NCBI RefSeq assembly: GCF_002355635.1
Contig: NZ_AP017558.1
Location: forward strand, 1,240,001-1,304,000
Length of the DNA: 64,000 nucleotides
Reading direction: 5' to 3'
From: Halopenitus persicus
Lineage (GTDB): Archaea; Halobacteriota; Halobacteria; Halobacteriales; Haloferacaceae
This document shows, piece by piece, positions 24,945 to 36,796 of this stretch (positions within the stretch are counted from its first letter, which is position 1; each line of letters opens with the position of its first letter). The notes under the pieces are model-generated. The model was not told where the DNA came from. It made no database searches and was given only the letters and a program-made list of their open reading frames with translations. The position numbers were made by a program, and so were the translations under genes.

Positions 24945-25904
24945 CTACTCGAAGCCGTGTCCGGCTGCGTCGGTCATCCCGAACGACTCGGCGAGCATCG
25001 TCTCGTCGGTTCCCCCGTGGCTGTAGGTGGGGCCGTCGACGACGTCGACGGTGACGCTGGCGGGCGCGAACACCGTCTCGGGGACGTCATAGAAGTCCCA
25101 GTCGGCGTCCTCGAACACCTCGATGAAGGGTGTGCCGTAGTCGTCGCGGACGGTGGAGACGAGCTCGTCGAACCGGTCGTCGTCGCGGGCGACCTGGAGG
25201 TAGACCTCGCCGCCGTACGCGAGCGCGTCGTTCGTCCGCCCCATCGCGACGTCCTCGTCGTAGCTCACCGGCGCAACCGGCGCCGATCCCGCGGCGGTGA
25301 GGACGTCGGTCGGGTCGTAGCCGATCTCGAGCAGCCGAAACATCGCGAGCTCCGGCGCGCGGGCGGCCATCGTGACCGACCCGACGACCGAGCCGGTCGC
25401 GAACGTCGGCAGGAAGACGCCCGAGGCGTCGACGCCGGCCAGCTCCGCGACGTGCTCGGCGACCGACGCGTCCGGAAGCGTCGCCGACTCGACCGCCAGG
25501 GTGGCGAACTCGGACTCGTCGTAGTAGCCGACGCGCTCGAACTCGGTCTCGCGACCCACCAGCGCACGGGCCGGCCCCGATCCGAGTCCCTCGAAATCGT
25601 CGAAGGAAAGCTCCCATCCGGCCTTCTGGGAGCACAGCAACGCGATCGCGGGATGATCCGTCGTCACCTCCACGTACGGGCGGGGCGCTCCCGATATCCG
25701 GCCCATCCGTGTCGTGACGTTGGCCAGGCCGGCGGTCTGGACCTCCGCGAGCAGGATGCCCGCCTCGATGCCGCCGTCCGCCGCCACGCCGAAGTCGATG
25801 ACGGTGGCCTCGTCGTCCAGCTCGTGTGGCTGGATCTTGAGCTCGCCGGCGAACTCGAGCGCCTCGTCGACGAGCTCGATCGCGGTCCGGTTGATGCTGT
25901 CCAT
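24945..25904 (-). CDS. mch: Methenyltetrahydromethanopterin cyclohydrolase homologue
   Basis: 319 residues, the usual length of Mch. Characteristic blocks: INRTAIELVDEALEFAGELK at the start, GIEAGILLAEVQTAGLANVT, RPYVEVTTDHPAIALLCSQK with AGW, and GRTNDALAYGGEVYL near the end. In methanogens it hydrolyses methenyl-H4MPT. Haloarchaea are not methanogens and keep Mch as part of C1 metabolism, presumably with a folate-type carrier; that substrate assignment is from general knowledge, not from this sequence. The protein is acidic as expected for a halophile and looks complete. Confidence 0.93.
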   Translation of the reverse strand: MDSINRTAIELVDEALEFAGELKIQPHELDDEATVIDFGVAADGGIEAGILLAEVQTAGLANVTTRMGRISGAPRPYVEVTTDHPAIALLCSQKAGWELSFDDFEGLGSGPARALVGRETEFERVGYYDESEFATLAVESATLPDASVAEHVAELAGVDASGVFLPTFATGSVVGSVTMAARAPELAMFRLLEIGYDPTDVLTAAGSAPVAPVSYDEDVAMGRTNDALAYGGEVYLQVARDDDRFDELVSTVRDDYGTPFIEVFEDADWDFYDVPETVFAPASVTVDVVDGPTYSHGGTDETMLAESFGMTDAAGHGFE

Positions 25905-26043
25905 ACCGGTCCTGCGTCCTCCTCGCGTAAGGGGTTTATCAAGCGTCGGCCGTGGACGCGACCCCGATCGTCGCAAACGCGTCGGCGGAAACCGGTTCCA
26001 CCGCCGGAGGTTTATCCCGGATACCGACGCAGTCCGCTCCACG

Positions 26044-26715
26044 ATGTTCGACGAACTCCATCCAGACTCCGACCACCTCGTCTCACGACGGTCGCTGCTC
26101 GCCGGAACCGCCGGCGTGGTCGGCGCGTCGACGGCCGGCGGCGCTCTCCTGACGGCGGGCTCGACCGCGGCCAGCGCGGCGATCGACGGGGACCCGGCGG
26201 CCCTGGAGGCGGGCGACACGCCGACCGTCGTCAGCAACGACGGCCGGATCGAGGCGGTCTACCTCACGCCGGCGATCGACGTCGAGTGGGCGGACTTCGG
26301 GAGCGGCGTGCGGACGATCGACGTCACGATCGCGGTCGGAAACGACGACGGCGTTGACACGATCGTCGAGGAGACGCTGACCACGGCCACCGACACGCCC
26401 GGTCCGATCACGGAGGCAGCCCCGGTCGACGGGACGAGCGGGTTCGCGGACGTCGCCGGCGCCCTCTCGCTCACTCTCGAGCGGCTCGACGCGACGGCGA
26501 TCGGCGACGACGTGACGAGCGACGCGTTGAGCGACGCGACGCTGCAGGCCGGGGAGACGGCCGCGACCGTCCTCGACGTGGTCCTTCGGGCGGACCTGGC
26601 CGGTCACGAGGGCGAGTCCGAAACCGTGCTCCGAACGACGAGCTTCGAGGTCACGGTCCGAAACCCCGAGGGCAGCGCCGACGCCGGCGGGACCGCGAAC
26701 ACCGAGGCGGTCTGA
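26044..26715 (+). CDS. Tat-exported protein of unknown function
   Basis: 223 residues. The N-terminus contains a twin-arginine signal (SRRSLLAGTAGVVGASTAGG) ending near AASA, so export folded through the Tat route is expected, typical for haloarchaea. The mature part is an acidic beta-rich domain (VEWADFGSGVRTIDVTIAVG, then DTIVEETLTTATDTPG; LRTTSFEVTVRN), possibly Ig-like. There is no lipobox cysteine and no C-terminal anchor, so it may be secreted freely. A gtttatccc TATA-like element (26011-26019) lies about 30 bp before the ATG. No relative of known function was recognised. Confidence 0.78.
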   Translation: MFDELHPDSDHLVSRRSLLAGTAGVVGASTAGGALLTAGSTAASAAIDGDPAALEAGDTPTVVSNDGRIEAVYLTPAIDVEWADFGSGVRTIDVTIAVGNDDGVDTIVEETLTTATDTPGPITEAAPVDGTSGFADVAGALSLTLERLDATAIGDDVTSDALSDATLQAGETAATVLDVVLRADLAGHEGESETVLRTTSFEVTVRNPEGSADAGGTANTEAV

Positions 26716-29025: not shown

Positions 29026-29078
29026 TGCGCCGGTCGTCGACTGATGCGCCGGTCGTCGACTGATGCGCCGGTCGTCGA
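29022..29078. repeat. Three perfect tandem copies of a 19-bp unit overlapping a stop codon
   Basis: Unit ctgatgcgccggtcgtcga at 29022-29040, 29041-29059 and 29060-29078. The first copy contains the stop codon of the zinc-ribbon gene. The array lies in the spacer before yqeC. Confidence 0.9.
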
Positions 29079-29115
29079 TATTCCTTTCGGCGTCGGGCGC
29101 CAACCGCGGGACGAG

Positions 29116-30015
29116 ATGGATCCGATCGATGCCTTCCGGGCCGACGACGCCGCCGTGGCGGTCGTCGGCGCGGGCGGCAAGAAGACGACGATGTATGCGC
29201 TCGCGAACCGGCTCGACCGCGCGGTCGTCACCGCGACCGTCCGGATCCCGATCTTCGATCCACACGTGGGGTCCGTCTCGGTCACGGCCGAGCCGACCGA
29301 GCGACTCGACCGGAGCACGTCCGAGACGGGACCGGCCGAGGGGGGCGCATCGGAACCGGAAACGACGACCCCGCGCGTGGAGTTCCCGCTCGGGCTGGTC
29401 CCAGCTCGCGAACGCGAGGACCGGTACCTCGGCTACGACCGGGAGACCGTGAGCCGCATCGTCGACTCCCACGACGGCCCGGTCCTGATAAAAGCGGACG
29501 GGGCTCGGACCCGCGAGTTCAAGGCGCCCGGCGAGTCGGAGCCGCAGATTCCGGACGGGGTCGACGTGGTTGTGCCGGTCGCGAGCGTCGCCGTCGTCGG
29601 CGAACCGCTGACCGAGGACCTCGTTCATCGCCCGGAGCGCGTCGTCGACGTCGCTCGGGGAGCGGGGCTCGACGTCGCGATCGGCGACACGGTCACCCCC
29701 GAGCTCGTCGGCACCGTCCTCGCGAGTCCCGCGGGCGGGCTGGCCGGCGTCCCCGAGGGTGCGTGCGTGATCCCCCTTCTCAACAAGGTCGACGACGACG
29801 ATGCGGCGGCGACCGCCCGCGAGATCGCCGCGGTCGTTCGGGATCGGATGGCTGTACGGCGACGTGAGCCACGGGAGGACTCCTCGCTCCCGTCGGTTCC
29901 GCACGTCGTTCTGGGACGGTTGATCGACGAGACCGTCGTCGACGTGGTTCCGATCGACGACGGGAGTCCGGTTGGTGACGTGGATTCGGTCGACGACGAC
30001 CGGTCGGCGAACTGA
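29116..30015 (+). CDS. yqeC: YqeC-family protein (selenium-dependent molybdenum hydroxylase accessory)
   Basis: 299 residues from the ATG at 29116, chosen because the upstream extension is encoded by the 19-bp repeats. The N-terminus holds a P-loop GAGGKKTT (residues 18-25) typical of YqeC. Further blocks are GPVLIKADGARTREFKAPGE and CVIPLLNKVDDDDAAA (guanine-type NKxD at the expected place). Family knowledge: YqeC accompanies molybdenum hydroxylases and cofactor maturation in bacteria. A MobA gene and a tungsten-enzyme homologue lie 4-7 kb downstream, in keeping with Mo/W metabolism, but no hydroxylase subunit is in the window. Confidence 0.82.
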   Translation: MDPIDAFRADDAAVAVVGAGGKKTTMYALANRLDRAVVTATVRIPIFDPHVGSVSVTAEPTERLDRSTSETGPAEGGASEPETTTPRVEFPLGLVPAREREDRYLGYDRETVSRIVDSHDGPVLIKADGARTREFKAPGESEPQIPDGVDVVVPVASVAVVGEPLTEDLVHRPERVVDVARGAGLDVAIGDTVTPELVGTVLASPAGGLAGVPEGACVIPLLNKVDDDDAAATAREIAAVVRDRMAVRRREPREDSSLPSVPHVVLGRLIDETVVDVVPIDDGSPVGDVDSVDDDRSAN

Positions 30016-34053: not shown

Positions 34054-35940
34054 TCACTCGGACGCGTTCGCGAAGGGGGTTCCGACGGGGGTGTCGGAGT
34101 CCCGAACGTCCGCGAGTTCGAGCCGGTCGAGCGTCTCCCGCGTCGGAAGCCCGTCGCGTCCCCAGCCGCGAGCGCGGTAATAGCCGTCCAGAAGCGTCTC
34201 GAACTCGTCGGGAGCGATCCGGCTGCCGGCGGCGGGACCGTCGACGATCGGCTCCGAGAGGACGTCCGGAAGCGCGTCGTCCGCCCGGTCGGCCCCCTCC
34301 CGCGCGTTGAACAGTCGGACGAGCGTCCAGACGCGTTCACCGGTTTCGTCCAGCTCCGCGACCGTGGTCGGGTACGAGAGACCGGTCGCATCCGAGAGCG
34401 CCCGGAGGAACGCGACGCCGTCCTCGCCTCGGAGCGTCTCGCCGGCGAAGTCGTCGGCGACGAGGCTCCACGACAGCGACCGCACGTTCTGTGCCGCGAT
34501 CACCGCCTCGATCCGGTCGGCGTCGCTCCACGCGCCGAACACCTCGCGCTCGATCGGGCGCGCCCGCCGGTGGCAGCCCCCACGGTCGCTCGTGGCATAC
34601 GCGAGCGCCATCCCGACCGCCGCCCGGGGGTCGTAGGCCGGCAGTTCCATCGATTTGACCGTCGGGATCCCGTCGACGTCGAACCGGTCGGCGGCCGCGT
34701 CGACCCCGAGCCGGAGCGTCTCGATCACGGTCGGGTCGAGTTCGGCAACGGGGTCGGCAGCCGGGTCCGTCTCCGAGCCCGTCTCGGCCCCACCCGTGGG
34801 GTCCGTCTCCGAGGTCGTCCCTGAAACCCCGGCGAGGCGGCGAATGACCGCCGTAGCCGTCTCGGGATCGCCGAACTCGACCGACGCGTCGATGGCGCCG
34901 CGCTCGCTCGCGCGGACGAGCCACGCCACGGCGTTGCCGGCCGAGATGACGTCGATCCCGAGCCGGTCACAGCAGCCGCCGAGGGCGGCCACCGCGTCGA
35001 AGTCGTCGACGCCGAGCCCGGCCCCAAGCGTCATCTGGGTGGCTCCGCGGGGCACGGTCTCGCCGTCGTCGGTCTCGATCCGGAACCCGCCGGGAACCGG
35101 GTCATCGGGGTTTTCGCGGCCGACCGACGCCTCGCGGGCCGCGTCGACCCCGACCGCGTCGGTCCCCTCGAAGGTCCCCTTGCGCCAGCCCTCGGTGGCG
35201 AGCGCGCCGACCTCGTCCGCGAAGTCGATCGACTCGAGCGTCTCGCCGGCCGCCTGCCAGCGCCCGGTCTCCGCGTCGGCGTATCGCTCGGCGTACTCCT
35301 CGCGAAGCCGAGCGAGCTCGTCGCTCGGGGGCTCCGCGGGGGCATTCCGGGCGATCACGGCCTTGAGGCCCTTCGCGCCCATCACCGCGCCGGCGCCGCC
35401 GCGACCGGCGTGGTGCTCGCCGGCGTCGGAGGCGATCGTCGCGTACCGGACCGCGGCCTCGCCCGCGGGACCGATGCACGCGACCGCCGCGTCGGGGTGT
35501 GCCGCCGCGGCTTCGACCGTGTCCGCTCCCCACTGCCCCGAGGGAACGATCCGGCCCTCGCCGTTCTCGAGTTCGATCCGGACCGGTTCCTCGCTCGTGC
35601 CGGTGACGAGCAGCGCGAGGCAGTCGTCGAGCGACCCGGCCAGCCGCTCCGCGAACGTCCCGCCGGCGTAGGAGTCGAGGAAGAACCCGGTCAGCGGCGA
35701 CTTCGTCACGGCGGCGTACCGCGGCTCGCCGGGCAGCGACCCGGACAGCGGGCCGACGCAGAACGCCAGCACGTTGGCCGGACCGAGAGGGTCAACGTCG
35801 GGCTCGAGTTCCGAGTAGAGATAGCGCGCGCCGAGCCCCTTGCCCCCGAGGTAGCGGCGCCGCCACCGCTCGGGGACGCGCTCGCGCTCGATGGTCCCCG
35901 CCGAGAGGTCCGCCCGCAACACGTGGGTCCGCCCCGTCAT
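34054..35940 (-). CDS. aor: Aldehyde:ferredoxin oxidoreductase family protein without [4Fe-4S] cysteines
   Basis: 628 residues from the ATG at 35940, the normal length for tungstopterin-dependent AOR enzymes. Domain 1 is well conserved: YLGGKGLGARYLYSEL, GPLSGSLPGEPRYAAVTKSP, and the pterin motif HHAGRGGAGAVMGAKGLKAV (residues 177-196). The second pterin region DRLGIDVISAGNAVAWL (325-341) is also present. However, the CxxCxxxC motif expected near residues 268-285 is replaced by a Cys-free stretch (AREASVGRENPDDPVPGG), and the fourth cluster cysteine near the C-terminal DSLGLC position reads NVRSLSWSLVADD. Electron transfer to ferredoxin as in classical AOR is therefore doubtful. Divergent from mobA. 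Confidence 0.85.
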   Translation of the reverse strand: MTGRTHVLRADLSAGTIERERVPERWRRRYLGGKGLGARYLYSELEPDVDPLGPANVLAFCVGPLSGSLPGEPRYAAVTKSPLTGFFLDSYAGGTFAERLAGSLDDCLALLVTGTSEEPVRIELENGEGRIVPSGQWGADTVEAAAAHPDAAVACIGPAGEAAVRYATIASDAGEHHAGRGGAGAVMGAKGLKAVIARNAPAEPPSDELARLREEYAERYADAETGRWQAAGETLESIDFADEVGALATEGWRKGTFEGTDAVGVDAAREASVGRENPDDPVPGGFRIETDDGETVPRGATQMTLGAGLGVDDFDAVAALGGCCDRLGIDVISAGNAVAWLVRASERGAIDASVEFGDPETATAVIRRLAGVSGTTSETDPTGGAETGSETDPAADPVAELDPTVIETLRLGVDAAADRFDVDGIPTVKSMELPAYDPRAAVGMALAYATSDRGGCHRRARPIEREVFGAWSDADRIEAVIAAQNVRSLSWSLVADDFAGETLRGEDGVAFLRALSDATGLSYPTTVAELDETGERVWTLVRLFNAREGADRADDALPDVLSEPIVDGPAAGSRIAPDEFETLLDGYYRARGWGRDGLPTRETLDRLELADVRDSDTPVGTPFANASE

Positions 35941-36103: not shown

Positions 36104-36796
36104 ATGGCGGATTCGAGCGACGCTGGAACCTGCACGGGCGTGATCCTCGCCGGCGGACGATCGACGCGCTTCGGCGACCGGGACAAGGCGCTCGCGCCGC
36201 TCGCGGGAACGCCGATGGTCCGACGGGTGGCGAACCGTCTCGCCGGAGCCGACGACCCGGTCGATCCGGGCGGCGAGCGCGCGAGCAGCGGCGAATCGGT
36301 CGTCGACGAGCTCGTGATCAACTGTCGGGAGGACCAGCGGGCGGGGATCGCGGATGCGATGGCGCGATACCCACTGGAGGTGACCTACGCCGAGGACGAG
36401 GAGCCGGACCGCGGCCCGATGGCCGGCATCCGCGACGGCTGCCGAGCCGCCACGGGCGAGTACGCCGCCGTGGTCGCCTGTGACATGCCGTTCGTCGATC
36501 CGAACCTGATCGCCCACCTGCTGGATCGGTGCCGCGACCACGACGCCGCGGTCCCCCGGCTCGAGGACCAATGGTTCCAGACGACGCAGGCGGTGTACCG
36601 CGCGCGGCCGATGGCCGAGGCCTGCGACCGGGCGTTGGCGGCCGGCGAGCGAAAGATCGTCGAGCCGCTGTTCGACCTCGAGTACGTCGTCGTCGACGAG
36701 CCCGAGATCAGGCGGGTTACGACCGGACGAACGTTCCGCAACGTCAACACGCGCGAGGAGCACGCCGACGCCGAAGCGTGGATCGTCGGGCGGTAG
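36104..36796 (+). CDS. mobA: Molybdenum cofactor guanylyltransferase
   Basis: 230 residues from the ATG at 36104. The nucleotidyltransferase signature LAGGRSTRFGDRDKAL is at residues 15-30, the metal-binding VVACDMPFVDP and the RGPMAGIRDGCRA block follow. It transfers GMP from GTP to molybdopterin, giving MGD. It is divergent from the tungsten/molybdenum AOR-family gene, a natural pairing. The 163-bp divergent spacer shows no obvious operator. The final codons (cgtggatcgtcggg) recur in altered form about 36 bp beyond the stop. Confidence 0.9.
   Translation: MADSSDAGTCTGVILAGGRSTRFGDRDKALAPLAGTPMVRRVANRLAGADDPVDPGGERASSGESVVDELVINCREDQRAGIADAMARYPLEVTYAEDEEPDRGPMAGIRDGCRAATGEYAAVVACDMPFVDPNLIAHLLDRCRDHDAAVPRLEDQWFQTTQAVYRARPMAEACDRALAAGERKIVEPLFDLEYVVVDEPEIRRVTTGRTFRNVNTREEHADAEAWIVGR

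Follow-up and report, generated by a model that had tools for sequence, protein, structure and literature searches.

What can a member of the aldehyde:ferredoxin oxidoreductase (AOR) family do once it has lost the residues that hold its iron–sulfur cluster? The question is raised by a gene of the haloarchaeon Halopenitus persicus, which lies in a 64 000-nucleotide stretch of DNA (NZ_AP017558.1, positions 1 240 001 to 1 304 000) referred to here as the window. Four cluster cysteines are present in 99% of AOR-family sequences (PMC10413684). Both descent and fold place the protein in this family. Its reading frame is stop-free and has a codon GC of 0.75/0.55/0.91, a strong third-position bias, and the Pfam domains AFOR_N (E = 2.8e-57) and AFOR_C (E = 8.6e-75) both score above their cut-offs. 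A PDB sequence search gives AOR/FOR enzymes as the best matches, among them Haloferax volcanii WOR83 (9q1t). An AlphaFold2 model built from a 74-sequence alignment (pLDDT 92.4, pTM 0.93) has the AOR fold across its whole length, with Foldseek TM-scores by query length of 0.87 to 1b25 and 0.86 to 9mqx, 9g7j, and 1aor, and structural-alignment identity to the closest AOR structures is 27–30%. H. persicus has three further AOR-family genes in its genome, four altogether, and these three retain CxxCxxxC, the E313 position, and a DxxxxC form of the second pterin motif. The features of the window are collected in Table 1.

Table 1. Location of the Cys-less AOR-family gene, its sequence features, and the neighbouring genes in the window.
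Feature	Coordinates	Strand	Description
Cys-less AOR-family gene	34054..35940	-	628 aa, ATG at 35940
HHAGRGGAGAVMGAKGLK	35362..35415	-	residues 176-193; glycine-rich cofactor loop (GRGG), retained
ENPDDPVPGGFRIETDDGETVPRGATQ	35035..35115	-	residues 276-302; stands in place of the CxxCxxxC...GPEYE block
DRLGID	34951..34968	-	residues 325-330; first DxxGxD pterin motif, retained
Ser/Thr/Glu-rich linker	34735..34821	-	residues about 374-402; low-confidence part of the AlphaFold model
RGGCHRR	34564..34584	-	residues 453-459; retained active-site His (Pfu H448)
RSLSWSLVADDF	34447..34482	-	residues 487-498; second pterin motif D489xxGLC494 replaced
mobA-like gene	36104..36796	+	MobA-like NTP transferase; divergent neighbour of the Cys-less gene, 163-bp gap
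yqeC-family gene (PF19842)	29044..30015	+	4 kb from the Cys-less gene, between the MCH gene and adk
MCH homologue	24945..26237	-	methenyltetrahydromethanopterin cyclohydrolase; about 8 kb from the Cys-less gene

The protein was compared with 41 full-length Cys-less sequences (itself included) and 5 partial or interrupted ones, and residues were numbered as in Pyrococcus furiosus (Pfu) AOR from a phmmer and a MAFFT alignment. The original prediction, that this AOR relative lacks all four [4Fe-4S] cysteines, is borne out. The CxxCxxxC and distal Cys that are the hallmark of functional AOR enzymes are absent: no cysteine occupies columns C288, C291, C295, or C494 in the window protein or, where these columns are covered, in the other 45 sequences. 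No displaced CxxCxxxC exists, which excludes, at the level of sequence, shifted cysteines able to bind a cluster. The loss is wider than first noted and extends to E313 and the second pterin motif. E311-Y312-E313 of the GPEYE block reads R-G-A (VPRGAT), so that ENPDDPVPGGFRIETDDGETVPRGATQ is devoid of both three cluster cysteines and the proposed catalytic Glu E313, and this column is Ala, Gly, or Ser in all Cys-less orthologues. The second motif, D489-x-x-G-L-C494, which also carries the fourth cluster cysteine, has become W-S-L-V-A-D or similar, with Trp for D489 and Asp for C494. The pterin motifs had been described as intact. This is only half correct: the two that were quoted (residues 176–193 and 325–336) are present, and GRGG and DRLGID are kept, but the second motif is WSLVAD in this protein and R182 is His.

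Much else in the cavity has been retained. The first pterin motif, DxxGxD, is kept throughout the clade with D or N at 338, as are R76 (mostly), G95, R186, G341, D343, Y427, and H448, and the active-site pair H448 and Y427 is invariant in 41/41 full-length Cys-less sequences. Other positions have changed and then become fixed: N93 is replaced by Y, R182 by H, and A183 by H, and the new invariant cavity residues of the clade are Y93, H182, H183, W489, D494, and D495. The ‘RA’ of Pfu R182-A183 is thus ‘HH’ in HHAGRGGAGAVMGAKGLK, a change that is also common to the Cys-bearing sister group described below. For orientation, the corresponding residues of AOR_Aa are reported to contact the pterin (R75, G94, R181, D361, D504, and C509), to bind Mg through their backbone carbonyls (N92 and A182), or to be the proposed catalytic residues (E331, H464, and Y443) (PMC10413684). 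The Cys-less protein shares the full-length fold, first pterin motif, GRGG loop, His, and Tyr with solved AOR-family enzymes (1aor, 1b25, 9mqx, 9g7j, 8c0z, and H. volcanii WOR83, 9q1t), and differs from them in lacking the [4Fe-4S] cysteines, the catalytic Glu, and the second DxxGLC motif. Judged from these alignments, the redox relay has been lost along with the acid/base Glu, the cavity is largely preserved, and it may still bind a pterin.

One reading of such a pattern is that the protein is still an enzyme. It would bind a W/Mo-bis-pterin and employ His and Tyr either in a non-redox reaction or in a redox one whose soluble acceptor has direct access to the pterin, possibly as part of formate or C1 metabolism beside FdhA. 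The invariance of H448 and Y427 and the strong selection on a cavity with six new invariants speak for it, and the loss of all cluster ligands together with the proposed catalytic Glu (E331 of AOR_Aa, PMC10413684) speaks against it; overall we regard it as unlikely, though not far-fetched. Use of another electron acceptor, one of three suggestions made originally, is made less likely by the joint loss of cluster and catalytic Glu.

It could also be asked whether the gene is an inactive relic or has been misread, through relaxed selection on a pseudoenzyme, a frameshift, or a wrong alignment. The low identity to AORs and the broken or stop-containing state of some orthologues are in keeping with this. 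However, dN/dS is 0.08–0.22 in 13 close pairs of Cys-less genes, indicating purifying selection, and conservation within the clade averages 0.93 at pocket sites compared with 0.71 at random positions (permutation p = 0.0004); among the 13 pocket sites tested only R76, D338, and L493 are unfixed. Together these values indicate that the gene is not in decay but belongs to an old lineage under active maintenance. Chance and sequencing or frame error are ruled out by the same dN/dS range and by identical changes over about 20 genera, which form one clade, and the structural model is confident over the full length. The relic explanation is refuted for the clade as a whole and has very little left to recommend it. 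Interrupted copies, with a frameshift or an in-frame stop within the match, were seen at loci L043 and L048 and in three genomes (G082, G110, and G115) of the genus g17; in these few species they are either recent decay or assembly errors.

Whether the Cys-less forms make one clade, a check attached to the original prediction, was addressed with a tree from which the columns of the cluster ligands, the Glu, and the second motif had been left out, computed by a quick search under one substitution model. A branch with SH-aLRT 100 separates all 41 full-length Cys-less sequences from the rest, with some long branches elsewhere in the tree, and this topology argues for a single clade and for a loss of the cysteines that happened once. 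Within it, the copy of Natronomonas sp. LN261 groups with Halorubrum copies (L031 and L076) with strong support, which suggests transfer between families. Two of the archaeal canonical AORs (L061 and L063) have open frames of about 820 residues with a C-terminal extension of roughly 200 aa.

The nearest relatives of the clade are six Cys-bearing haloarchaeal sequences (Halorubrum and Haloferax marinum; L044–L047, L050, and L054), with 41–44% identity to the Cys-less protein over the alignment. Like the Cys-less clade, they have Y93, H182, and H183 and have lost D489 (F489 in the sister group); unlike it, they keep all four cysteines and E313. This distribution makes remodelling of the cavity first, followed by loss of the cluster and Glu, the simplest order of events that the sequences suggest. 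Genes near the sister encode an aldo-keto reductase or an aldehyde dehydrogenase, and it is probably an aldehyde oxidoreductase whose pterin contacts have changed. Since it shares Y93, H182, and H183, a cavity remodelled in this way was once functional in what is likely an aldehyde enzyme, a point in favour of an altered enzyme. The idea that the sister group shares the gene neighbourhood of the Cys-less gene was rejected, as MobA is missing from its loci.

That neighbourhood is rich in genes for the Mo/W cofactor. The closest NCBIfam model to the product of the divergent gene in the window is molybdenum cofactor guanylyltransferase MobA, with a score below its cut-off, and in several genera mobA is likewise divergent from the Cys-less gene with a short shared intergenic region. 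Recurring around the Cys-less gene are MobA, YqeC, FdhA, a NarJ/TorD-like chaperone, a polyferredoxin with an FlpD domain, and MoaA, and a NuoF-like protein is also among the neighbours in other genera; the order and orientation of neighbours differ between genera. The linked YqeC and FdhA score above the cut-offs of TIGR03172 and TIGR01591, respectively, and FdhA has the active site NCTRMCHAS. Reading an in-frame TGA of FdhA as selenocysteine was considered and rejected, since the stop within the match (two loci) is at the extreme C-terminus and the active site is Cys-His. Downstream of the Cys-less gene, DUF7124, DUF7405, a 126-aa protein, and a small membrane-like protein recur in a constant order alongside the polyferredoxin and the chaperone at several loci (L016, L018, L022, L026, L029, L041, L043, L051, and others). 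The MCH homologue of the window could belong to the C1/formate metabolism of the lineage.

The strength of these associations was assessed in 116 haloarchaeal genomes, at least 95% complete and drawn evenly across the order, of which 59 carry the Cys-less gene. A YqeC orthologue is present in 59/59 genomes with the gene and 14/57 without it, MobA in 59/59 and 39/57, and FdhA (at least 65% identity) in 37/59 and 7/57. Plain Fisher tests, which ignore kinship, give p = 6e-20, 5e-7, and 1e-8 for YqeC, MobA, and FdhA, and the associations remain in a CMH test stratified within the seven genera that vary (p = 2.6e-5, 0.007, and 0.006). Within 10 kb of the Cys-less gene, YqeC is found in 39 genomes of 13 genera, MobA in 30 of 11, and FdhA in 14 of 9; at least one of these, or a longer Fdh-like type, lies no more than 10 kb away in 43/59 genomes and 16 genera. 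None of the 59 genomes lacks an FDH-like or other bis-MGD-type protein, and the five with no Fdh-like match still have a PF01568 protein. As a control, 0/57 Cys-bearing AORs from 25 linked genomes have MobA or YqeC within 5 kb and four have one of them within 10 kb, in a comparison of which only the Cys-bearing side is unbiased, the genomes having been picked for linkage of the Cys-less gene. A DNA-motif survey of the class, with an exact match in 31/292 genomes, proved too strict and was left out of the counts. In its genetic linkage to, and co-occurrence with, Moco genes the Cys-less gene thus has the attributes of a Moco-biosynthesis or delivery gene.

Because the gene always co-occurs with, and usually adjoins, genes that build the Mo/W cofactor, a role in handling this cofactor is probable, rather than aldehyde oxidation. 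The interpretation that we favour, with about an even chance of being right, is that of a repurposed AOR-fold paralogue that has given up aldehyde oxidation and serves in assembling or delivering the Mo/W bis-pterin cofactor of bis-MGD enzymes, mainly those of formate-dehydrogenase type. The pterin/metal carrier mentioned in the original prediction is the best fit of its three suggestions, as the gene tracks YqeC, MobA, and FdhA; binding of the cofactor itself is a part that we infer. For an altered enzyme, FdhA within 10 kb in 9 genera and the MCH gene in the window are supporting observations, but linkage and co-occurrence are strongest with cofactor biosynthesis (YqeC and MobA) and not with one metabolic pathway.

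In the cofactor-handling scheme, the old AOR cavity would hold a labile metal-(bis)molybdopterin intermediate without using it, and the Cys-less protein would hand metal-bis-MPT to MobA, which attaches GMP. The P-loop protein YqeC would take part, and a NarJ/TorD-type chaperone and FDH would act downstream. The cofactor binding, the hand-over to MobA, and the partnership with YqeC are each presumed from the evidence above, and the narrower version, an AOR-fold protein dedicated to holding metal-bis-molybdopterin and supplying it to MobA, partnered by a nucleotide-binding YqeC, is possible but clearly short of probable. In favour of the cofactor role, cluster ligands and E313 have been lost selectively while H448 and Y427 are kept and the pocket is conserved. 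A suggestive precedent comes from E. coli YdhV, an AOR-family protein with bis-Mo-MPT bound although its [4Fe-4S] cluster was non-functional after purification; in vitro, MobA turned the cofactor extracted from it into bis-MGD, which activated TorA (PMC9103625). YdhV is an AOR-family protein that held bis-Mo-MPT while its cluster was not functional; unlike the Cys-less protein it keeps the cluster ligands, its [4Fe-4S] cluster being described as labile, and the precedent is one of in vitro conversion. In the tungsten FDH pathway of Methylorubrum, the model places MobA after metal insertion (PMC13197769).

Several observations weigh on the other side. D489 and C494, pterin contacts in other AORs, have been replaced, so a bis-pterin may not fit, and with the second pterin motif lost a single pterin is possible. 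The neighbouring MobA is below its NCBIfam cut-off, no fusion of the Cys-less AOR with MobA or YqeC was seen, and YqeC has, to our knowledge, no established function; all three count against the cofactor role. In addition, 14 genomes have YqeC without the Cys-less protein, nearly all of them with MobA and several with YqeC and MobA beside Fdh, which means that the protein is not generally required for bis-MGD insertion and is needed at most conditionally. It is accordingly an addition to the YqeC/MobA/Fdh module, perhaps serving in metal choice, protection against oxygen, or storage.

The shared intergenic region with divergent mobA in several genera also brings regulation into consideration. 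A pseudoenzyme whose cavity, when occupied by cofactor or Mo/W, signals supply and controls MobA, YqeC, or FDH transcription would account for the retention of the cavity after loss of the catalytic parts. The AOR fold takes up the whole length of the protein, with no DNA-binding or signalling domain, and we consider this explanation improbable.

The wider significance is that the [4Fe-4S] cluster counts as a defining feature of the AOR family, and that an entire conserved clade of haloarchaea has now been seen to lack both cluster and catalytic Glu with the cavity still under selection. The annotation ‘aldehyde ferredoxin oxidoreductase’ assigned automatically to Cys-less genes is probably wrong. 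The tie to YqeC and MobA provides a concrete, testable claim about how a bis-pterin cofactor is handled before nucleotide attachment; if true, bis-MPT, the intermediate on the way to bis-MGD, would have a protein home, and YqeC a role that does not depend on selenium. The fold and family were already known, and what seems new is the Cys-less, Glu-less clade: papers on Cys-less AOR proteins, or on such a clade tied to YqeC, MobA, and FDH, were not found in a partial literature with most subscription journals outside it, which is weak evidence of novelty.

The same YqeC family (TIGR03172) belongs to a bacterial YqeC/SelD system for selenium-dependent molybdenum hydroxylases (PMC2276186), whereas the haloarchaeal YqeC is tied to MobA and FDH, mostly without SelD. 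Deletion of yqeC in C. difficile gave no clear phenotype (PMC11448449). SelD reaches its cut-off in 9/116 haloarchaeal genomes only; for the most part, then, the linked YqeC functions independently of selenium, which counts in favour of the cofactor role. An accessory system for selenium-dependent molybdenum hydroxylases was accordingly rejected as an identity for the module: SelD is not linked to it, and the YqeC that is linked to SelD is, where compared, another paralogue. In most of the nine SelD genomes this second, more divergent YqeC (about 40–46% identity) lies a few kb from SelD, and it is a separate selenium-type module, distinct from the YqeC linked to MobA.
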